From contig NW_025407852.1 in assembly GCF_003324165.1 (NCBI RefSeq), positions 184,760 through 248,759 of the forward strand: 64,000 nt of DNA, in the 5' to 3' direction. Source of the DNA: Naegleria lovaniensis. Lineage: Eukaryota > Heterolobosea > Eutetramitea > Acrasida > Naegleriidae. A model generated the notes under the pieces. It was not told where the DNA came from, did not search any database, and was given only the letters and a program-made list of their open reading frames with translations. Of this stretch, positions 14,484 to 60,770 are shown piece after piece; within the stretch, counting starts at the first letter, position 1; every line of letters begins with the position of its first letter. A program made the position numbers and the translations under genes.

Positions 14484-14603
14484 TTTTTTGTAAACGTTCA
14501 GAACTTAGAGTTCTTGTACGGGCTTTTAAAAATCGAGATTGCACCAGTCAGTTTATGCACTTTACGCTCAGGCGTAGTTTGTGGTGGAATTCATTCAAAA
14601 AAA

Positions 14604-17986: not shown

Positions 17987-18727
17987 TTTGTTGTGATTTT
18001 GTGTCAAGTTTAATTGTCTTTGATGGACAACGTTTGGAATGATGACGGATGTGTGATGTCGTTTCAACACAGTGACAGGTCCTTCTGCTAAACCTTCCGC
18101 ATTCTATATTTGGTTGCCAACCATTTTGAGAATTTTGAGATGAGGAGCCCGAACAGAAAGATTTCTTTCCATAACGCTTTCTTGTAAATCCTTTAAATAC
18201 TGAATTTGCTCTCTCAATTTGTTAGATCTTAATTTTCTATGCACATCCATTAATTTTTGGCCTCGCTAATAAAGCTTTTACGTTTCTACATGGGTGATCT
18301 TATAACTGTAAATACGCAATTTTTAATTTTTCAAAAGAAATAATCAATTCGGAAGGTCAACGATTTGTAATCTCCTGCGTGAGCTCTACAGAATAAATCT
18401 GCTTGTTGTATTTCCTGTTCAAGTTGCGATTTGATTTTGAGCCCTTCACAATCATTAATGGTTTTTATCTGACACAGTACCCTAGACATCGATATGAAAT
18501 GGTTAACGCCATTTTACTTGTTATGATCGTTCAGAAACTGTTCACGTTCAATCCTGCCATATTTCTCTCCATTCACAGCACTCCATGTACATAAATATCC
18601 AATAAAATTGATGGGCAATACTTTGTACATTTCCTAATGTGCTTCCTGTTCGATGTTCTCACTACAAAACTAAGTTGCATGTTTAGGTCGATTTCTGCAA
18701 TTACAAATGAACAACTCACCTTAAAAA
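17987..18727. other. Intergenic region with one possible small reading frame
   Basis: This 741-bp gap separates the DUF262 gene (minus) and a coiled-coil gene (plus). Apart from the 48-codon frame listed at 18104-18250 on the minus strand I see no supported gene. Both promoters should lie here. Confidence 0.5.
18104..18250 (-). CDS. Possible small protein or upstream ORF, 48 residues
   Basis: ATG at 18250-18248, TAG at 18106-18104. The product is charged and helical-looking (RKLRSNKLREQIQYLKDLQE) and would form a short amphipathic helix. It lies upstream of the DUF262 gene and in the same frame: if its single TAG were sense, the frame would run on into the DUF262 protein. It could be an independent small protein, an upstream ORF in the leader, or part of a longer first exon with an error. 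I have no family match. Confidence 0.3.
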   Translation of the reverse strand: MDVHRKLRSNKLREQIQYLKDLQESVMERNLSVRAPHLKILKMVGNQI

Positions 18728-21764: not shown

Positions 21765-21811
21765 TTTTTTTAAATTTGAATTTGATGGCCTAAAAACTGT
21801 AAATCAACGAA

Positions 21812-21821
21812 TTTTGGCGGG
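21812..21821 (+). promoter_or_regulatory. E2F-like motif TTTTGGCGGG
   Basis: TTTTGGCGGG lies 48 bp upstream of the RIB43A start codon and within the 114-bp divergent promoter shared with the gene at 21879. It fits the E2F/DP consensus TTTSGCGS. Similar motifs occur at three other intergenic places in this window. Binding is inferred. Confidence 0.35.
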
Positions 21822-21878
21822 CTTCATTGTTTATTATTTCAACCTGCAACTCATGAATTACAAAATTGACATAAAACA

Positions 21879-41440: not shown

Positions 41441-42000
41441 TTTTATGGATCGAGTGTTTGAGTATATCAATCTATTTGTGTGAAATGTATGATGATGACA
41501 ATCAGGTGTATGGTAATTATTATTGAAATAATTTAAAAATTAATTCTTGCCCAAATGGAGATGATGGACAGGGTTTGACGATGAATATAAATTACAAAAT
41601 TCAACAAGGATGAAAGAGAAACAAAGGTAGGAGTTTGTTGATGTGTATGTTTCATAGACAGCAACGAAATCGTGATGCTGTCTTCGCAGTGAGAAAGCGT
41701 GTTTTTGACTGTTCGTTTGGTTGTTGTGGTCGGCAATCTAGCGCCTCCTGTCAGATCTTTTTGAATTTTTTATCTGTTGACATTTGACTGGAATTGAATT
41801 TTTGTAACAAGGCGCCAAAAACATAAGATTCACAGAGCTCTGCAGCACAAAGAACAAACAACGTTGAAAGTTGAACGTGTGAAACAATCTGTTCTCAAGC
41901 CTCACATTCACTTGTTCATTCAACTTTTTAAAAATTGCCATAAAAGTATGATACCATCACACATTCTCTCTGTATTAAAAAGAGCCTCAAAAACTTCAAA
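41441..42000. other. Divergent intergenic region with an E2F-like site
   Basis: This lies between the RhoGEF (minus) and the GTPase gene (plus). The sequence GGCGCCAAAA at 41811-41820 (reverse TTTTGGCGCC) is an E2F-like match. Two open frames of 67 codons on the minus strand (41533-41736 and 41738-41941) have no domain and I do not call them genes. Confidence 0.45.
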
Positions 42001-47860: not shown

Positions 47861-49798
47861 TCAGTGGCGATCTGTAAGTTTAAGGGAAGTGAAATCCTTC
47901 TTTTTAAATTGAAGAGCATTGAAAGTGAATTCAAGTTCACATGGGTCATAGCAGAAATGCAAACAAAACAAGTTGGGATTTGGATCTTGTAAGCCCGAAT
48001 TGATTGAGAAGATGTTATCATAATTCATCATTTCATCCATTGCATCAACCCCACAGTGGTAGAAAATTGAATCCTCAAATATTAGAGGATGTGATTCATC
48101 TCCAATGGAATTGAACCCTTCGTCTGGAATCCTCTCCATGTTGCATGGCTTGAGCTTTGTCGTGTCGCCTTCATAAAAGTATGTTTTAACAGAATCATTA
48201 GCTGTTATGAATAGATATAAAATACCATGTGAAGGAAGTACGCTGGCTGAAACAAGAGTGTCCATATCTTCAAAGTTGATTTGGGCTATGAATGTGTCAC
48301 CGTTACTCCAAATATTGGAATTATAAAACCATGATTCCCATTCTGTTGGAATTTCAGGAAAGCCACCAAGTTTTGACCTTCCAATGGGAAATGTTAAAGC
48401 GTCGAATGATGGTGTGTGATCGTATATGCTTTTTGAATTAAGAGATATGTAAAGACTTTTTTCAAGTTCTTTAAGGAACTCTATTGGAGGTTTTTCGATG
48501 GTTTGATTGTCTGCACCTTCAACGACGTTTCCAAGGATAGCTCCCCCAAAGCACAATTCCGTGAAATCTGGCCTAATACAGTAACTTTTAGCTCGAATCC
48601 ATGGATTAATTCTTACAAAAAAGAGTTCCAAATAGCTGGTTATTTGCTTTCCTTTTCCTACCAAACTAAAATTTGAAAGTGACAAGCTAGTGGAGGTGGC
48701 AAACTCAAACATGGAATGTCTTATCAATGAATGAAAGCACAAGTGCTTCCAAATGTCGTCGCTGGTAACAATTAAGTAGTTCCAATACTTGCACACCAGT
48801 CTCATATTTAGCAATTGTTCTAAATCATCAAAAAATTGAAGAATTATTTCATGTAGCTCGAATGGTAATGCAGAAAGATGTTGATTCGAGTCGATCATTG
48901 GAAATGGCCGTTCCTCACAAAAAGTAACGAAATCTCGTGATGATATAAATGCTGTAGGGAAATAAACAAGACTCCCACAATTGATTACCTGACAGAGTTC
49001 GTCGTCATAACAGCATGACATGAACTCAGAGATAGACAAAACTTTTTGATAGGAGGATTTCATTGATGCCAACTCTACCATCTCTGCAACCAAATATTCC
49101 GCGATTGTAGTCATTCCAACAGATAGAAGATATAAACACGCATCTAGGTTTGTAAGGTTTGGCTCGTCCTCCAGTATTTCTAAATGTACGTCAAAGAATG
49201 AATTAATCAATAAGCTCATTTCTACTGGAGAAAATGTCAAGTAAACGGAAGCCCATTGATTTTCCAATATTTCTTGTCTTGCTAATTGTAATTGCTTACA
49301 AATATCTTTGTACATGTAATTGACAATATTTCCAGGAAAATTCTTAAAAACAAGAGATTTAAAAAAGCTTTCCATTGTATACAAGTGAGCTGTCATCTTT
49401 GATTTCTTCAAAGTAGGCTCATCAGCCTCTTCTATTTCTTCTCCAGTAACGCTCAGCCAATCATCAGAACTAATTACTGAAAAAATCTCTGTGTCTCTTT
49501 CATGTCTATAAATGGGAGTGTTGGTGTACTTTGCCCTTAAATATTTAAGTCTATCACAAGCATATCCGATGATCAAATTTTTTAAATAATCATTTTCTGT
49601 CTCTTTGATAGTCACTAATGGGCAACTATTCACCAATAAATATAACATGAATTGATGAATATAATTATTCAGTCTTTTTGTTGCAAGAGGCTCAATACCC
49701 TTCTCGATATCAATTTGACATAAAACAGCCTCTGTTCTGAAATACTCATTACATGAAACAATATCAATCAATGAGATTTTGGACAAGTTATTGTTCAT
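47861..49798 (-). CDS. F-box protein with a C-terminal DUF1963 (YwqG-like) domain
   Basis: A 645-residue intronless protein. Residues 1-310 form a helical region I cannot name. An F-box follows (ALPFELHEIILQFFDDLEQLLNMRLVCKYW, then IWKHLC). The last 250 residues match DUF1963: RSKLGGFPEIPTEW, DTFIAQINFEDMDT, LPSHGILYLFI and a FYEGD strand. DUF1963/YwqG is mostly known from bacteria with unknown function. The F-box would link it to an SCF ubiquitin ligase, with DUF1963 as the substrate reader; that is inference. The start codon lies 16 bp from the left end of the MULE element, so its promoter is inside or across the transposon end. Confidence 0.8.
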   Translation of the reverse strand: MNNNLSKISLIDIVSCNEYFRTEAVLCQIDIEKGIEPLATKRLNNYIHQFMLYLLVNSCPLVTIKETENDYLKNLIIGYACDRLKYLRAKYTNTPIYRHERDTEIFSVISSDDWLSVTGEEIEEADEPTLKKSKMTAHLYTMESFFKSLVFKNFPGNIVNYMYKDICKQLQLARQEILENQWASVYLTFSPVEMSLLINSFFDVHLEILEDEPNLTNLDACLYLLSVGMTTIAEYLVAEMVELASMKSSYQKVLSISEFMSCCYDDELCQVINCGSLVYFPTAFISSRDFVTFCEERPFPMIDSNQHLSALPFELHEIILQFFDDLEQLLNMRLVCKYWNYLIVTSDDIWKHLCFHSLIRHSMFEFATSTSLSLSNFSLVGKGKQITSYLELFFVRINPWIRAKSYCIRPDFTELCFGGAILGNVVEGADNQTIEKPPIEFLKELEKSLYISLNSKSIYDHTPSFDALTFPIGRSKLGGFPEIPTEWESWFYNSNIWSNGDTFIAQINFEDMDTLVSASVLPSHGILYLFITANDSVKTYFYEGDTTKLKPCNMERIPDEGFNSIGDESHPLIFEDSIFYHCGVDAMDEMMNYDNIFSINSGLQDPNPNLFCLHFCYDPCELEFTFNALQFKKKDFTSLKLTDRH

Positions 49799-49813
49799 CT
49801 TTTCCGATAGGTG

Positions 49814-49984
49814 TATTGTGATTTTCGAAAAAGTGCGAATAAAAAATCGACGAAACGTCCAAAAAATGAGGGTTGACCGAATTTGAGCAAGTCGTTTTCG
49901 ATTTTACTCGATTTTTTTTGAGGGGAGTTTAATTTCCACTCCACCCAACCACCTGTTCACTCTTCAATTTGAACATTGAAATGA
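49814..49984 (+). repeat. Left terminal inverted repeat, with a 73-bp extra segment
   Basis: Begins TATTGTGATTTTC, continues with AAAAAGTGCGAA, then a 73-bp segment not found on the right, then GAGGGGAGT and the 34-bp core, ending TTGAAATGA. Pairs with 52310-52406. Confidence 0.85.
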
Positions 49985-50057
49985 CAATTTAGTGTTTATA
50001 TAAATAAATACAACTCGAAATTACGACAATTTCCATCCTCTTTACAATTTACCATTT

Positions 50058-52214
50058 TCATCTTAATATACCTGGAGGAGCTATTGTTGCGTTAGTTTGG
50101 TAATTCAATGTTGTTTGATTATAAATATTGTTGGTTGGAATGAATGGAGGAAATTGAGGAGTAAATGAATATGGAGGATATGGTGGGTATTGAGGAAGTA
50201 GAGGCTGCTGTAAAGGTGGAAGTAATGCAGGAATAGTTGTCATATTAATTGATGAAGTTTGATTTGGTGTTGGGGAAGATTGAGAAGGTTGGTTTGGCGT
50301 TGATTTTGGTTTTCTTCCTCTTTTCTTTGGCTGGTTAGGGTTATACATATCGAAAATCAAACTGGTATTGGATGTGTTTTGAGTAATATTTGGATATGAT
50401 GAATTTTGACCTTGATTTGTGTTGGATGATTCAGGTGGGGGAAGTGAAAGAGGTTCATTCTGAAGTGTAATATTTCTAATAGGTTGACTCTTTGAAATGT
50501 TGGTTGTAGCAAGTGCTGTAGATGGTGTGTTAGGATCTGTGTTAGAGATATTTGAAAATGTGATTTTCTTTCTCTTGGACTTATCATTATTAACCAGTTG
50601 CAAGCCACCGAAAGGGTTGGTTCTCTTTTTGACGTTGTTGATAGAATTGTCAGGAAGTGCTAGAGTTGTAGTCAATTTCTTTTGTTTGTTAGCAATTTCA
50701 TTATTAGTTATTTCAAATTCAAGTTCTTGTAGAATATTCACTGATCTTTTTAGTCCAGGTTTGCTTGCAAATTTTAAATTTAAACGAGAATGAAATATTT
50801 CAGCTTGATTATTTGTCAAATCTAAATCTTGTATTCTTGATTTGAATGTAAGAGCCCAAATATTTGGAGCAAATAGTGCATTAGTGGACAAATCTCCAAA
50901 CCAATTTCTAACAAGATACCTCCACAACTTTTCACCTGCAACACTTCTCCATGTTGCTAAAAATTCCTCCTTTTTGATGTTGAACATTTGTTCAGTCATT
51001 TTAGTTCGTGCAAGGTCTTTTAGTTCTGATTTAAAGGTCTTAAGAAGTTCTCTATTTCTCAGTGGATTGTTCGCAGGTAGTTCTCTTCTTATCCATCTTG
51101 ACACTGCTTGCAAGAGATGGAACTGACATCCAACAATTTCTACATCTGGGAAAATAATTCTAAGAGCTTTGTGCATAGCTTGCTCAAAATCACAAGCAAC
51201 AAATAATTTTCGAACTTGCAATAATTCAGGTACAATTAAATTTGCAATCACCATCCACAAATATGTATAGAATATTTCTGACTTAGCTTGTGCGAAAATA
51301 AATAAAACAGGAACAGCCGCATCCATTCCCTTTTTCCTTACATGAATAGTAATCATTTGCTCGCAACCTTTAGGACACACGTCAAAAGTTCCATCAACAT
51401 AGATTTGATCTTCCTCAGTCACTTCTTTTAAGATATTAATTTGGTAATTGGATCCATAAATAAGAAGGAAATGTGGAAAACCTTGTACCCATCTTACAAA
51501 TTGATCTTGAGATTTAGTACATGATAGATCTTGTCTGGTGTACAAATCTTGTAAACATTCAATCCTTTCAGTGTAGAATTTTTTTTTCATTTCTTTAACA
51601 TCCTCTTTGGTGATTATCAATCGGTGATCTCTTAGTTCTTCTTTTGATAACTTTTTGTTTAAATTTTCTGCAATTTGTTGACTAGATCTTATATTTGTGT
51701 TTGCTTTGATGTATTCAAATAATTCCTTTCTTCGTTCCTCCGAAATCTTTTGAGGTTGACTTTTTTCAATATGAGGTGGAGCATGATCACTGTGTGATGC
51801 AACGTGTATGTATGTATCAATATCAGGATAATATCTTATTCTCGCAGAACATTTTCTGGATTTATAAAGATTGCACTTATAGGTAATACAGTGCGCAAAT
51901 GTTTTGTGCTTGCTGTAGAAATAATTATTAAATCTCAATTGCTGCTGATTAGTTGTTACTTTGTGAACATTTCCTCTCGGAATTATATATTCATTTTCTT
52001 TCAAATTGATAATTTTACCATCAATTTGTAAATAATTATCTCCTACATTTGATGGCTTAGAAATAGAATTACATACATCAGTGAGCAAACCAAGCTTATC
52101 GTCATCAAATTCATCTTCGGAGTTTGTATCATATACTTCTTCATCAAAAACAGGATCAATTTCGACCGTGTCTTCGTATTCGATTGTTGTTGGGGTGATT
52201 GTATTGTGCAACAT
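50058..52214 (-). CDS. MULE-type transposase with N-terminal FLYWCH-like zinc finger
   Basis: A 718-residue uninterrupted frame. After about 60 acidic residues comes a FLYWCH/WRKY-like region (ITYKCNLYKSRKCSARIRYYPD then HSDHAPP: Cys, Cys, His, His). The MULE DDE domain follows: YVDGTFDVCPKG (first Asp), FVACDFEQAM (second Asp), GCQFHLLQAV (the C-x2-H of the insert), and DLTNNQAEIFHSRLN, where NNQAE supplies the Glu. The C-terminal 200 residues are Asn/Pro/Ser/Gln-rich with an AT-hook-like KKRGRKPKS. It should cut and paste the flanking element. All three catalytic residues are present, and no stop or frameshift is seen, unlike several host genes here. Confidence 0.9.
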   Translation of the reverse strand: MLHNTITPTTIEYEDTVEIDPVFDEEVYDTNSEDEFDDDKLGLLTDVCNSISKPSNVGDNYLQIDGKIINLKENEYIIPRGNVHKVTTNQQQLRFNNYFYSKHKTFAHCITYKCNLYKSRKCSARIRYYPDIDTYIHVASHSDHAPPHIEKSQPQKISEERRKELFEYIKANTNIRSSQQIAENLNKKLSKEELRDHRLIITKEDVKEMKKKFYTERIECLQDLYTRQDLSCTKSQDQFVRWVQGFPHFLLIYGSNYQINILKEVTEEDQIYVDGTFDVCPKGCEQMITIHVRKKGMDAAVPVLFIFAQAKSEIFYTYLWMVIANLIVPELLQVRKLFVACDFEQAMHKALRIIFPDVEIVGCQFHLLQAVSRWIRRELPANNPLRNRELLKTFKSELKDLARTKMTEQMFNIKKEEFLATWRSVAGEKLWRYLVRNWFGDLSTNALFAPNIWALTFKSRIQDLDLTNNQAEIFHSRLNLKFASKPGLKRSVNILQELEFEITNNEIANKQKKLTTTLALPDNSINNVKKRTNPFGGLQLVNNDKSKRKKITFSNISNTDPNTPSTALATTNISKSQPIRNITLQNEPLSLPPPESSNTNQGQNSSYPNITQNTSNTSLIFDMYNPNQPKKRGRKPKSTPNQPSQSSPTPNQTSSINMTTIPALLPPLQQPLLPQYPPYPPYSFTPQFPPFIPTNNIYNQTTLNYQTNATIAPPGILR

Positions 52215-52309
52215 GTTGCTGTGAGTGGAATTTTTTTTTTGGGTGGACTTATTGTTGAAACTACCCTTCCTTTCTTTGATACTTTTTACAAAACCTAAAA
52301 TAGATCATT

Positions 52310-52406
52310 TCATTTCAACGTGTTGGTTGAACGGTTGAAAGGTGGTCGGGTGGGGTGGAAATTTGACTCCCCTCTTTTTTTTCGCACTTTTTGGAAAATC
52401 ACAATA
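52310..52406 (-). repeat. Right terminal inverted repeat
   Basis: Starts TCATTTCAA, then after 22 bp the 34-bp core GGTGGTCGGGTGGGG and GGAAATTTGACTCCCCTC, then TTTTTTTTCGCACTTTTTGG and AAAATCACAATA. It is the reverse of the left end without the 73-bp extra segment. Confidence 0.85.
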
Positions 52407-52489
52407 ATGGTAAATTTCGATACATCGGGTTCATTTTTTAATTCTTGATCATCAACCATCTCTTCCCAATCCATCAATCTTTTTAAAAA

Positions 52490-53923
52490 ATGAATAGAGG
52501 TGATGATGGAGAAGGATTTTACTCCTTCCGAGATCCATACATCAAGACCATTCATGAAATGATATCAAAACATGCTCCGTGTTTTCCCATTGATCCAGAT
52601 CATGTTTCTATCATAGATACACCATCCAAGTTTTATGATGGATTGATTGATGGTATTCAGAATGCACGGGAACGAGTGGTGTTGAGTAGTTTGTATTTGG
52701 GTACAGGAACACAAGAACAAAAAATTGTAGATGAGCTTGAAAAAGCTTTGGAAAGAGAAAAAGATTTACAAGTGGTTATTTTATTAGATTATTTGAGAGG
52801 AACCAGACAAACCAGTGAGACCAAAAAAGATAGCAGCGTGAGCATGTTGGAAGGTCTTGTCAAAAAATTTGGAAAGGAACGAGTGAATGTATCTTTTTAT
52901 CATACACCTAATTTGACTGGATTTTGGAAAAACGTACTACCTGCACGTGTGAACGAGATTATAGGTGTGCAACACATGAAACTGTACATGTTTGATAACG
53001 ATATGATTATTTCTGGAGCTAATTTGAGCGATTGGTATTTCGTAGATAGACAAGATAGATACATGTTGATTAAGAATGAAAAACAAGTCATTGATTTTTT
53101 TACTGGGCTTGTAAAGACCGTTCAAAGTTTTTCATACAGATTGTGTGAAAAAGGTCATTTGACAATTTCTTCACCAGATCCTGTACAGAACAACAAGGAA
53201 TTTAGATTATTTGCCGAACATGCTATTAGACAATACTTTTTCAATCAACGGTGGTCCAACAACCTTTCCAACAAAGTCACAAATACATGGGTGTTTCCCA
53301 CCATTCAAATGGGCCAGGTGAATGTGAGGCACGAACAATTTTTAATTAGTGGCATTATCGGTGCTGCTGTTGAAAACTCCTCTCTCGCCTTCACATCTGC
53401 CTATTTCAATTTTACAAAAGAGTACATGACGGATGTATTGACTTCTCCATGTAAAGATATTGCAATTTTGACGGCCTCTCCACCAGCAAATGGATTTTTC
53501 ACGGCCAAAGGTATTTCAAAAAACATTCCAATGGCTTATGATACAATGGAACAAGAATTTTATTCGGCTGTAGAGAAAAATCAAAAACTTGGCTCCATTA
53601 AGCTCTATGAGTACATGAGAGAAAAGTGGACTTTTCATGCAAAGGGATTGTGGCTGTACTCTCCCAATAAGCAATTCAATACTCCCTTTTTAACTATGAT
53701 TGGAAGCAGTAACTTTGGTGGTAGATCTACAGAACGAGATATCGAAGCTCAAATAATTCTGATAACGGAAGATGAAAAACTAATGAAGAGAATGGAAGAA
53801 GAACGTCAAAATCTTCAGACCTATTCTAAACTTGTCACCAAGGCAACCTTTGCTGTCCCAGAAAGGCGAATTGGACGAGTATCTCACTTTTTAGTTTCAA
53901 AATTTTTCCATAAATTCTTATAA
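52490..53923 (+). CDS. PGS1: Phosphatidylglycerophosphate synthase, phospholipase D type
   Basis: A 477-residue intronless enzyme of the PLD superfamily. Seen: two HKD-type motifs, HMKLYMFDND and HAKGLWLYSP, followed by SSNFGGRSTERDIEAQ, and upstream blocks RVVLSSLYLGTGTQEQ and VVILLDYLRGTRQT typical of PGS1. It joins CDP-diacylglycerol and glycerol 3-phosphate to form phosphatidylglycerol phosphate, the first committed step of cardiolipin synthesis, in mitochondria. I see no clear presequence. The start follows six A residues and is 84 bp from the right end of the MULE element. It converges with the kinase gene; the stops are four bases apart. Confidence 0.92.
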   Translation: MNRGDDGEGFYSFRDPYIKTIHEMISKHAPCFPIDPDHVSIIDTPSKFYDGLIDGIQNARERVVLSSLYLGTGTQEQKIVDELEKALEREKDLQVVILLDYLRGTRQTSETKKDSSVSMLEGLVKKFGKERVNVSFYHTPNLTGFWKNVLPARVNEIIGVQHMKLYMFDNDMIISGANLSDWYFVDRQDRYMLIKNEKQVIDFFTGLVKTVQSFSYRLCEKGHLTISSPDPVQNNKEFRLFAEHAIRQYFFNQRWSNNLSNKVTNTWVFPTIQMGQVNVRHEQFLISGIIGAAVENSSLAFTSAYFNFTKEYMTDVLTSPCKDIAILTASPPANGFFTAKGISKNIPMAYDTMEQEFYSAVEKNQKLGSIKLYEYMREKWTFHAKGLWLYSPNKQFNTPFLTMIGSSNFGGRSTERDIEAQIILITEDEKLMKRMEEERQNLQTYSKLVTKATFAVPERRIGRVSHFLVSKFFHKFL

Positions 53924-56571: not shown

Positions 56572-58293
56572 TTATTTGTGATTTACAGACTTGTGCTTGT
56601 TGCTCTTAAACTTCGAAAGTATTTCCTTCTTGTTTTGTTTTTGAGACTCGAGGGATGCCTTAAACCTGTGGAATGTGTCCATCATGAGAACACACATTTC
56701 GGATTCCACATTCTCAAACAAATTTTCAGGTAAATGTTCACTTTGACCAGTTGCAAAGAAATCCAAACATTGTTTCACTCGGTCCGCAAGCTGTTTGTTA
56801 ATATTCACAGACTTATCACCATGAACATCCAAATAATCTGTGTAAATTTCAAAGGCAATTTCATACTTTTTCTTTTCAATTTCATTCAAATCCTTTTCGG
56901 TGAATCCCTTCTTCTTTTTCTTTTTGGTTGGCTCCATGCTTGCAGATGATGAGCCTGTTTCTGAAAGAATGTCTGATGCTCCTTCACTGGTATCAAAAAG
57001 ATAGACTTGAATATCAAAGCTTCGTTCACTCAGCAATTTGTAATCGTTAATCTTATCGAGTAGTGAGAAGTTGTCCAAGCTTAATTCTTGTTTACAGTAA
57101 TTCTTGAATTGGTTACGTGTCTTGGTATCTTTCATTGTATCCATTAACATGAGAGCCCTAATTTGTTTTAGCTTCTTGTTATTTGAGGAGTCCTTCTTGA
57201 GCGACATGACTATGGAACCAATGACTGTTGGTACTACTACAATAACGGAAACCAAAATGACGATGAGAGAAACGGTAATGATCACAGTATTAAAGTCTTT
57301 TGCAAAGTTTTGAATACCCAACACATAATCGACCAATGGCTGAAATTCTTCAGCATATCCTTCAAGACAAAACTTGTAGTAAGGAGATTCCAACAAGGAC
57401 ATGGCACTTGAATAATTGCCAGTCTTTAGAAGTGATATAGCCTTAGATTCAATACCCAATGCCTTGGCCGTTCTTAAATCATCGATGGACATGTTATGGG
57501 CCACATAGTAGTGTAAATTCTTTGGAACTTTGGTGAGGATCACGTCAACGTTTGCCAGGAACTGTTTAGTGTAATTAGAAAACTTAGCAGCATAGGTTGC
57601 AGTGATTTGTGGATTGTTATTGGAGAAGACTGCTGATCTACATGAAGCAACCATCATTTGTCGATAATAAGACGTGCTCGTATCTAATCCATCAAATATT
57701 GTCGAGTAGTAATTCTGTCCAACATAACCAACAATGATCAATGTGGCCAACGTGAGAAATGCTAACAAGTTGACAGTCAACGATAATAGACTGAAAACTT
57801 TTAACCAACTAAGTTCTAGCACACCAAAACATGTTTTTACCCTTATAGCGCCTGACGTACTCTTAGTCACTGAAGAAGAACGCGGTGTCTTTGAAGTGGC
57901 TGCTGATTGCCCAGCTGTGCTCTTCTTGTCGTCTGCTCCTTGTTTAGAAATTGGTTCGACTCTAAATCCAATGTCTCCAGTTCTTAATACATGATCATCG
58001 CCTGACTCGTCACTGACACTCAAACATCGATCAGCACTGCTTACGACTTTCAGTGATGAGCCACCTTCATGGATCACGAGTTGAATTTGAGATTGATTCG
58101 AGTTGGTACTCATTCCAGAATCTGACATGGAACTACTTATGATATTAGTTGGAGAAAGAAGTTTGGGTTCATATGGTTCAATAGAAAGCGTTTGTTGCTT
58201 ATCATTTTGAGTAACTACTTGTGGTATTTCTAATTCGCCACTCACATTTGCCTGTTGGCTGGTGTTGCTGTTGTCACTTTCGCTGTGATTCAT
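56572..58293 (-). CDS. Two-pass membrane protein with a C-terminal RGS domain (copy 1)
   Basis: 573 residues, no intron. A 140-residue disordered start, TM1 (VFSLLSLTVNLLAFLTLATLIIVGYVG), about 160 lumenal or extracellular residues, TM2 (FNTVIITVSLIVILVSVIVVV), and an RGS domain: QFKNYCKQELSLDNFSLLDKIND, EIAFEIYTDYLDVHG, KSVNINKQLADRVKQCL, LPENLFENVESEMCVLMMDTFHRF. The insert at EPTKKKKKKG is basic. RGS domains speed up GTP hydrolysis on G-alpha. The outer domain, which may sense a ligand, has no named family I can see. It is a close copy of the gene at 58803-60770 and lies next to it in the same direction. Confidence 0.87.
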   Translation of the reverse strand: MNHSESDNSNTSQQANVSGELEIPQVVTQNDKQQTLSIEPYEPKLLSPTNIISSSMSDSGMSTNSNQSQIQLVIHEGGSSLKVVSSADRCLSVSDESGDDHVLRTGDIGFRVEPISKQGADDKKSTAGQSAATSKTPRSSSVTKSTSGAIRVKTCFGVLELSWLKVFSLLSLTVNLLAFLTLATLIIVGYVGQNYYSTIFDGLDTSTSYYRQMMVASCRSAVFSNNNPQITATYAAKFSNYTKQFLANVDVILTKVPKNLHYYVAHNMSIDDLRTAKALGIESKAISLLKTGNYSSAMSLLESPYYKFCLEGYAEEFQPLVDYVLGIQNFAKDFNTVIITVSLIVILVSVIVVVPTVIGSIVMSLKKDSSNNKKLKQIRALMLMDTMKDTKTRNQFKNYCKQELSLDNFSLLDKINDYKLLSERSFDIQVYLFDTSEGASDILSETGSSSASMEPTKKKKKKGFTEKDLNEIEKKKYEIAFEIYTDYLDVHGDKSVNINKQLADRVKQCLDFFATGQSEHLPENLFENVESEMCVLMMDTFHRFKASLESQKQNKKEILSKFKSNKHKSVNHK

Positions 58294-58802
58294 CCTCTTG
58301 TTACTCTAGGGATTGTTGAACGTTTTGTTTTTAAGTTTGAAAGCTACATGGTGCTGGCTTTTTGATGTTGTATTAAACATGTCTCGGATATGGACTTTTG
58401 ACTTCGGATACCATGTTGTAGGTAAAGCCTCAATCGGTTCTCTTTTCTAAATGACTCGTACAAAAATAAAGTCGCATGTCTTGTCAGGAATGAAGAAATC
58501 CATTTATGGATTGTGATAGATAATTGCATTGCAATCGTTCGAAGGATTCCATTACTTTAGATGTATTTCAAAGGACTTTGTTGTCGAGAGGTCTTTAATG
58601 ATAACATTCCGAATACGATCTTACTGGATAATAACCGCAGTAAACTCGTGTGCAAATTATGATCTACAGGTTCATTCTGGGTCTTGCGGACACCAAGAGT
58701 TTTTAGCGAGGTTTTTGAACGCAATCACTGAACAATGCATGACATCAGTTCTGTTGGAGCTCAAGTAAGGTGGAGCGATGGTTAGGATACAACAATGTCC
58801 TC
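58294..58802. other. Intergenic region between tandem RGS genes
   Basis: This is the 3' end of copy 2 and the promoter of copy 1. I see no additional gene; a weak plus-strand frame at 58529-58768 has no domain or good start. Confidence 0.5.
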
Positions 58803-60770
58803 TTATTGTTGATTCACTTGGCTCTTTTTGCTGAGCTTGAGTTTGGCGAGCACTTCCATCTTGTTTTGTTTCTGACATTCTAAGGATGCAATAAATCGGC
58901 GGTGAGTATCCAATAAGAGAAGACAAATTTCGGATTCCACATTCTCGAACAAGTTATCTGGCAATTGCTCACTTTGACCAGTTGCAAAGATATCCAAACA
59001 TTGTTTCACTCGGTCAGCTAGAGATTTGTTAATATTCACAGACTTATCACCTCGAACATCCAAATAATCTGTGAAAATTTCAAAAGCAATTTCATACTTT
59101 TTCTTTTCGACGGCAACAAAGTCTTTCTCAGTATATACTTTTTTCTTTTTCTTTTTGGGTTGATTGGTACTTCCGTTAGTTGTTGCACTTTGTTCTGAAG
59201 CAACATCAGAAAGTGTGTCGCTTTGGTCAAATAGGTACACTTGAATATCAATACTTTTGTCACACAAAACCTTATAATCATTGACCTTTTCTAATAGGTG
59301 ATAATTGTCCAAACTCAACTCTTGCTTACAAAAGTTCTTAAATTGGTTTCTTGTTTTTGGATCTCGCATGGTATCTTTCAGAAGATACGTCTTGATTTTC
59401 TTCAACTTTTTGACATTGGAAGAATCCTTTCTAATAGAGACTGTCAATGAGGCGATGACAGTCGGGATGACAATTACAATAGAGCTTACAATGACAACCA
59501 AACACACAGTCATTGTAGTCGTTGTTAACTCTTGAAGTCTAGCTGTATTTCCCAAAACGTATTCCACTAACGGTTGCAACTCTTCTTTAAATCCTTCCAA
59601 ATAATTCTTGTATTGTGCCGACTCTAAAGTATCCATTGCAGCTGTGTAATTTTTCTTCCTTACGAATGAAAGAGCCTTTGACTCTAATGCCATTGCCTTA
59701 GCGGTTCTCATGTCATAAAAGGAAATATTGTTCACAATGTTGTATTGCATTTCGATAGGCACTCGATCAAGAATAATCTTAACATTGGCCATAAATTTCT
59801 GGTAAGTAGAATTGTAATATGCTAGATATCTGGCAGCAATCGTTGCATTAAAATTTGAAAAAGCAGCTGCCCGACACGCACTGATCATTTCAGCACGATT
59901 CAATTCCGTGTCGAGGCCCAAATTACCAGAAACAAGTTCTTGAATTTTTGTTTGACCAATATAACCACCAATAATGATGACACTCAATACGACAAAGGCC
60001 ACCAAGTTGACCATCAAAGAAAGCAAGTTACATAATTTCACTCGTCCCAGCTCTAACATTCCAAAACAAGTTCGAATTCGAAAATTATTTCTTGACTTGG
60101 TTTTGGAATTGGAGGACATGGGTGTTTTGAGAGAAGTAATAGATTGATTCACCCCACTTTTACCATCCTTCTCTAACTTGAGAAAACGAGCAGCTGACAA
60201 ACGTCTCTCCACTGCAGAAGACGATCGTGATTGAGCGTCATTGGAAGAGGAGCTTTTGGGACGAGATGAAGTGCTTGGTTGAATTGCAAGATCGTGTTTT
60301 GGGATGGGGGAAGAAGGAGTTGTACAATATGAAGTAGTTGTAGTGGATAAAGCATCACAAGCATTCGAATTCGAGGAAGAGAGAAGGGGCTGAGAAGGAG
60401 AGCGTGGACTCATTGGGCTCGTTCCAACAACCATCATGTCTGAATTATTGTTGTTGTCGTTATGGATATCCATGATAACACTATGTGATGGAACAATGTT
60501 TGAGGTTGGAATGAGTGACTCGGGCTGAACCTCGTGCAGAATATTGCCATCATCATGAGGGTACTCCATTCTATTGGTATCTTTCAAACCATTGCAGTTG
60601 GAGGAGACTTTGGGAGTGGCAGTGGCGGTGGGAGGCTCAGCAATTATCAGGTCATTGCGAGTGGGATGGTCCTCTTGTATGTGTGTGGTACTACTATCAA
60701 TGGGGAGTGAGTGATTACTACTGTTGGAAGAAGAGCGTGCCGTGTTATTGTTGGAGTCTTCTTGACTCAT
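58803..60770 (-). CDS. Two-pass membrane protein with a C-terminal RGS domain (copy 2)
   Basis: I start at the ATG at 60770 rather than the non-ATG codon at 60860. The product has about 655 residues: a 210-residue Ser/Asn/Thr-rich start, TM1 (LCNLLSLMVNLVAFVVLSVIIIGG), a 150-residue outer part, TM2 (LVVIVSSIVIVIPTVIASLTV) and an RGS domain (QFKNFCKQELSLDNYHLLEK, EIAFEIFTDYLDVRGD, LPDNLFENVESEICLLLLD). The order, lengths and most of the RGS sequence match copy 1; the N-termini differ strongly. This is a tandem duplication. Two-pass RGS proteins with an extracellular sensor are not a standard animal or fungal type. Confidence 0.87.
   Translation of the reverse strand: MSQEDSNNNTARSSSNSSNHSLPIDSSTTHIQEDHPTRNDLIIAEPPTATATPKVSSNCNGLKDTNRMEYPHDDGNILHEVQPESLIPTSNIVPSHSVIMDIHNDNNNNSDMMVVGTSPMSPRSPSQPLLSSSNSNACDALSTTTTSYCTTPSSPIPKHDLAIQPSTSSRPKSSSSNDAQSRSSSAVERRLSAARFLKLEKDGKSGVNQSITSLKTPMSSNSKTKSRNNFRIRTCFGMLELGRVKLCNLLSLMVNLVAFVVLSVIIIGGYIGQTKIQELVSGNLGLDTELNRAEMISACRAAAFSNFNATIAARYLAYYNSTYQKFMANVKIILDRVPIEMQYNIVNNISFYDMRTAKAMALESKALSFVRKKNYTAAMDTLESAQYKNYLEGFKEELQPLVEYVLGNTARLQELTTTTMTVCLVVIVSSIVIVIPTVIASLTVSIRKDSSNVKKLKKIKTYLLKDTMRDPKTRNQFKNFCKQELSLDNYHLLEKVNDYKVLCDKSIDIQVYLFDQSDTLSDVASEQSATTNGSTNQPKKKKKKVYTEKDFVAVEKKKYEIAFEIFTDYLDVRGDKSVNINKSLADRVKQCLDIFATGQSEQLPDNLFENVESEICLLLLDTHRRFIASLECQKQNKMEVLAKLKLSKKSQVNQQ

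Follow-up and report, generated by a model that had tools for sequence, protein, structure and literature searches.

A Somewhat Worn MULE Transposon Adjoining Two Divergent Genes in Naegleria lovaniensis

The stretch of Naegleria lovaniensis DNA analyzed here (hereafter the window) spans 64,000 nucleotides and has a GC content of 37%; the genome-wide values given in passages of PMC6125883 are 37% for both N. fowleri and N. lovaniensis and 35% for N. gruberi. At positions 47861..49798, on the minus strand, lies a host gene coding for an F-box/DUF1963 protein of 645 residues, in which the Pfam families PF12937, PF00646 and PF09234 score above their cut-offs and which has a 62% identical relative, P0127. 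On the plus strand, at 52490..53923, lies a gene for a PGS1-like phosphatidylglycerophosphate synthase of 477 residues, recognized by PF13091 (57.1 bits). Among the best 120 of the 1249 matches of the latter, its closest other relatives are 73% (P0007) and 57% (Willaertia magna) identical, and below these come many proteins named PGS1 or CDP-diacylglycerol--glycerol-3-phosphate 3-phosphatidyltransferase. Records named N. fowleri or N. lovaniensis are absent from these best 120 of 1249 matches, as they are from both of the two matches of the F-box protein (scored among the 7994 candidates with the most words in common). Between the two divergent genes lies an element of 2.6 kb (49814-52406), which is a genuine, somewhat worn MULE.

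The transposase of this element, recognized by its Pfam matches, catalytic residues and homologs, is encoded on the minus strand (50058..52214). The proposal in an earlier note on this DNA, that a MULE with a full transposase frame and all three catalytic acids is present here, holds: the frame comprises 718 codons without an internal stop, and D274, D342 and E472 are all there, together with C363-x2-H366 and W453. An FLYWCH-like zinc finger match covers residues 89-137 and is followed by a DDE domain at about 266-510 and a C-terminal tail rich in Pro, Gln and Asn. The tail contains the sequence RGRKPK (residues 632-637), which we take to be an AT-hook-like motif and which is also retained in P0005, the 54% identical relative described below. 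On the window copy, PF10551 scores 26.8 bits (E 7.1e-06), 0.8 bit under its cut-off of 27.6, and the FLYWCH family PF04500 scores 23.3 bits (E 7.4e-05), 0.3 bit under its cut-off of 23.6. Across the five members of our alignment, the window copy counted, PF10551 is matched at E <=0.1 in all five and FLYWCH in two, the others being devoid of part or all of that region. Zinc-finger DNA-binding domains are frequent in MULEs; the same five members give no match to SWIM at E 0.1, and no cysteine occurs C-terminal to residue 363 in the window transposase. Its AlphaFold model is poor (mean pLDDT 44), and the fold matches of this low-confidence model are weak: retroviral integrase cores come first, with Hermes at rank 7, one of 457 matches reaches E <=0.001, and the TM score by query is about 0.1. 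The GC3 of the transposase frame is 0.24, below that of all 12 selected host ORFs (0.32-0.45).

The element is bounded by terminal inverted repeats (TIRs) in two blocks. The outer block of the left TIR (49814..49845, plus strand, 32 nt) is 94% complementary to the outer block of the right TIR (52375..52406, minus strand), and the left inner block (49920..49984, plus strand, 65 nt) pairs at 77% with the right inner block (52310..52374, minus strand). The right end is thus continuous over 97 bp, and the left end is interrupted by 74 nt (49846..49919) that appear as a gap in the TIR alignment and have no counterpart in the right TIR. The earlier description of the repeats (98 bp in two blocks) as well-matched is apt for the outer block only. 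That these matches might vanish on proper alignment is excluded, since the two ends, aligned with gaps, score 59.7, whereas 300 base shuffles reach at most 27.3 and up to 300 random pairs of window segments lying at least 500 bp apart at most 29.5. When the 64-kb window was scanned for inverted arms separated by 300-8000 bp, with an exact seed of 11 bases and a low-complexity filter, the outer blocks were the sole pair to match at 28 or more of 32 positions. An outer 26-mer pattern allowing up to 3 mismatches likewise occurs twice in the window versus 0 of 100 shuffles. Searches for further TIR copies in the window and for the 74-bp segment elsewhere in it returned only chance-length matches (of 11 bases for the segment), and the TIR pattern has 0 matches in viral contigs. 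By eye, the 74-bp segment is flanked by a short inverted sequence, AAAAAATCGA / TCGATTTTTT, beside an A-run and a T-run; the segment is perhaps a tiny inverted-repeat insertion or the product of a template switch. Upstream of its ATG, the frame of the F-box gene stays open into the left TIR (49799-49930), with no other ATG before the stop.

No target-site duplication (TSD) could be recognized at offsets of -6 to +6 and lengths of 4-12 within the allowed mismatches, in agreement with the earlier note. MULE TSDs measure 8-11 bp and MULE TIRs 14 to 500 bp (passages of PMC6446971); hence the TIRs of the present element, 32 nt at 94% and 65 nt at 77%, fit the superfamily, whereas no 8-11 bp TSD, a hallmark of MULEs, could be found. 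As old copies can lose their TSDs by decay, the assignment to the MULEs rests on the transposase and the TIRs. In yeast, the addition of 8- or 9-bp TSDs raised excision of the mosquito MULE Muta1 about 7- or 3-fold, respectively, and just 10% of the revertants were precise when TSDs were lacking (passages of PMC5225508). By analogy with this poorer excision, the present copy may be a poor donor.

The catalytic residues of Muta1, an active element of Aedes aegypti, are D214-D283-H307-W401-E419, and their spacing, including that of the CH and W positions, is near that of D274-D342-H366-W453-E472 in the window copy, Muta1 having an N-terminal FLYWCH finger and the window protein an N-terminal FLYWCH match just under the cut-off. 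Nevertheless, Muta1 codes for 504 residues, moves in yeast and generates TSDs of 8-9 bp (passages of PMC5225508), whereas the protein here has 718 residues, including a long Pro/Gln-rich tail with the AT-hook-like motif noted above, and the element has no detected TSD. The legend of Figure S2 in PMC3164196 reports a full-length MuDRF element from Naegleria gruberi, and accordingly MULEs are not new to the genus. Passages of that paper describe MuDRF as a branch of MuDR that is defined by a GCM domain and whose TSDs measure 9 bp. Like our element, MuDRF occurs in Naegleria and has a DDE transposase of the MuDR superfamily; its protein also contains a zinc domain for DNA binding, the candidate for which in our element is the FLYWCH match. 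Compared by description, the two differ in that the element here has this FLYWCH match and no detected TSD, and the GCM family gives no Pfam match at E 0.1 in any of the five members scanned. MuDRx-Phytophthora and one TvMULE, which belong to protist MULE groups, carry an FLYWCH finger, for which the present element has the match just under the cut-off, and share with it a single ORF and TIRs of tens of bp but, likewise by description, have TSDs of 9-11 bp (passages of PMC6446971). That survey (Mob DNA 2019) nowhere mentions "Naegleria", and the passages considered here of PMC6446971, PMC10161547, PMC5225508, PMC9587614, PMC12730594, PMC4007536, PMC5704228 and PMC10432273 contain no Naegleria MULE. 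In the portions of PMC6125883 dealing with N. lovaniensis, DNA transposons make up 0.68% of the genome in the table and 1.25% in the text, and the repeat table names CMC-EnSpm and PiggyBac among the DNA elements without naming MULE; the corresponding figure for N. fowleri is 1.12% (passages of PMC6831594).

Over aligned columns, the window transposase is 98% identical to FDP41_007542 of N. fowleri, 87% to C9374_000469 of N. lovaniensis and 54% to the further relative P0005. The two named proteins are hypothetical proteins at NCBI and MULE transposase domain-containing proteins in UniRef. Though of the same family, the FDP41_007542 record is without the residues corresponding to 114-217 of the window protein (51564-51875, minus strand); as the window DNA can be read there as starting with GT and ending with AG, this gap probably reflects an intron called by the gene model and not a real loss. 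The 90% cluster of the window transposase holds 6 member sequences, where those of the flanking genes hold 2 and 1, which, along with the close relatives P0003 and P0004, hints at a multi-copy family, with the proviso that cluster sizes might stem from multiple assemblies or gene models rather than copies. Given these close relatives in the protein database, it appears unlikely that the element is without other copies. Outside eukaryotes, pattern searches for the transposase gave 2 and 29 matches in viral contigs and 21 in bacterial and archaeal genomes, none of which was confirmed.

Against the N. lovaniensis relative, the window transposase has 87 changes in 689 residues, distributed as 2/115 in the linker (residues 151-265), 28/245 in the DDE region and 44/183 in the tail. 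The scarcity of changes in the linker points to constraint on that segment, as judged from the alignment. For the protein as a whole, the mean BLOSUM score of the changes (-0.21) does not differ from that of a neutral simulation (-0.36, sd 0.18), and neither does the share of changes falling in the DDE region (0.32 versus 0.36). Only 2 of 200 neutral runs stayed free of stops, a comparison biased by the fact that the protein database lists intact frames. Against the close copies P0003 and P0004, there are 14 changes in 610 and 11 in 491 residues, respectively, with no sign of constraint; their mean BLOSUM scores of -0.21 and 0.18 compare with neutral values of -0.35 (sd 0.41) and -0.34 (sd 0.44).

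The window copy differs from both P0003 and P0004 at positions 405, 437, 485, 500, 593, 681 and 684, and the N. lovaniensis protein sides with the latter two at five of these seven (405, 437, 485, 681 and 684). P0005 matches P0003 and P0004 only at 437 and 485 and shares the residue of the window copy at 405 and 593, which indicates that not all seven differences are derived in the window copy. The agreement of the outgroups suggests that at least 437 and 485 are so derived, as are four additional residues near 558-563 that are absent from the four other members. Such changes would fit a transposon copy that has been drifting after landing. Together with the 74 extra bases of the left TIR and the divergence of the inner blocks, they make the term "intact", applied earlier to this element, too strong.

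The open frame and the strong conservation of the linker, set against the rapidly changing tail, are what one would also expect had the transposase been domesticated as a host gene, with the TIRs as mere remnants. We regard this as very unlikely, given that TIRs persist at both ends, that there are several nearly identical relatives, of which the named one from N. fowleri lies on a contig of a different size (515,763 versus 521,392 bases), and that the recent changes have hit the catalytic domain no less than the rest, as seen in the comparison with P0003 (7/245 DDE residues versus 3/204 tail residues).

Turning to the site itself, 15 bp (49799-49813) separate the element from the ATG of the F-box/DUF1963 gene and 83 bp (52407-52489) from that of PGS1, each one less than the 16 and 84 bp given before. 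Without the element, the two start codons would be 98 bp apart, in keeping with the earlier figure of about 100 bp. Other divergent pairs in the window had been put at 115-120 bp; two such pairs do exist, at 114 bp (21765-21878) and, given a sirtuin first exon read by eye, at 120 bp (14484-14603), but others measured by first ATG are 560 bp (41441-42000) and 741 bp (17987-18727) apart. Two further pairs, for which the first exon on the plus strand could not be located, have uncertain spacings of 601 and 612 bp. Short divergent gaps thus occur in the window but are not the rule. The geometry, with 98 bp remaining, supports the earlier claim that the element inserted between two divergent genes, though it does not prove the insertion itself, and it is plausible that a shared promoter was split thereby. 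P0127 has extra residues ahead of the region where the window's F-box protein starts, a hint, though no more than that with a single distant relative, that the insertion may even have changed where this gene begins.

With distances as short as 15 and 83 bp, transcription starts may fall in or beside the TIRs. This proximity raises the further idea that the element was co-opted: after a short shared promoter was split, both ends of the MULE would have become the promoters of the separated F-box and PGS1 genes, and the element would be kept by selection as something that both genes require. With no recognizable TSD, the insertion could be an old one that was retained. We nevertheless consider this scenario very unlikely, as the inner TIR blocks now match at 77% and the left TIR is interrupted, and as MULEs commonly insert in or near genes (passages of PMC6446971). 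Moreover, the suggestion that the element is kept by selection finds no backing in the transposase, whose differences from the close copies cannot be separated from neutral ones, a result that speaks to the protein and not to the ends.

We favor, with a probability of roughly 0.88, the reading that this is an ordinary, autonomous-type Naegleria MULE, which we infer to have been inserted some time ago into a gap of about 90-100 bp between two divergent host genes. Going by what is known of the family, the zinc finger of the transposase would bind the TIRs, and its RNase-H-like DDE domain would cut the element and reinsert it. Later drift would then have added the 74-bp insert to the left TIR, or removed one from the right TIR, rendered the TSD unrecognizable and introduced a handful of changes peculiar to this copy of the protein. 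The F-box and PGS1 genes would most likely use promoter sequence in or beside the element. As the two closest named transposases lack a functional name at NCBI, the anatomy of a Naegleria MULE, with its TIRs and transposase, should be useful for repeat annotation. Should strains turn out to differ in the presence of the insertion, it would also serve as a marker and as a natural experiment on promoter splitting.

The contrast between the identity of the transposase to its relatives (87-98%) and that of the flanking genes to their nearest other relatives (62-73%) brought horizontal transfer into consideration, an idea we dropped because same-species versions of the flanking genes may sit in the window's own clusters. 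Elsewhere in the window, at 56572-60770, two adjacent minus-strand ORFs of 573 and 655 residues appear by eye to be tandem paralogs of a membrane protein.
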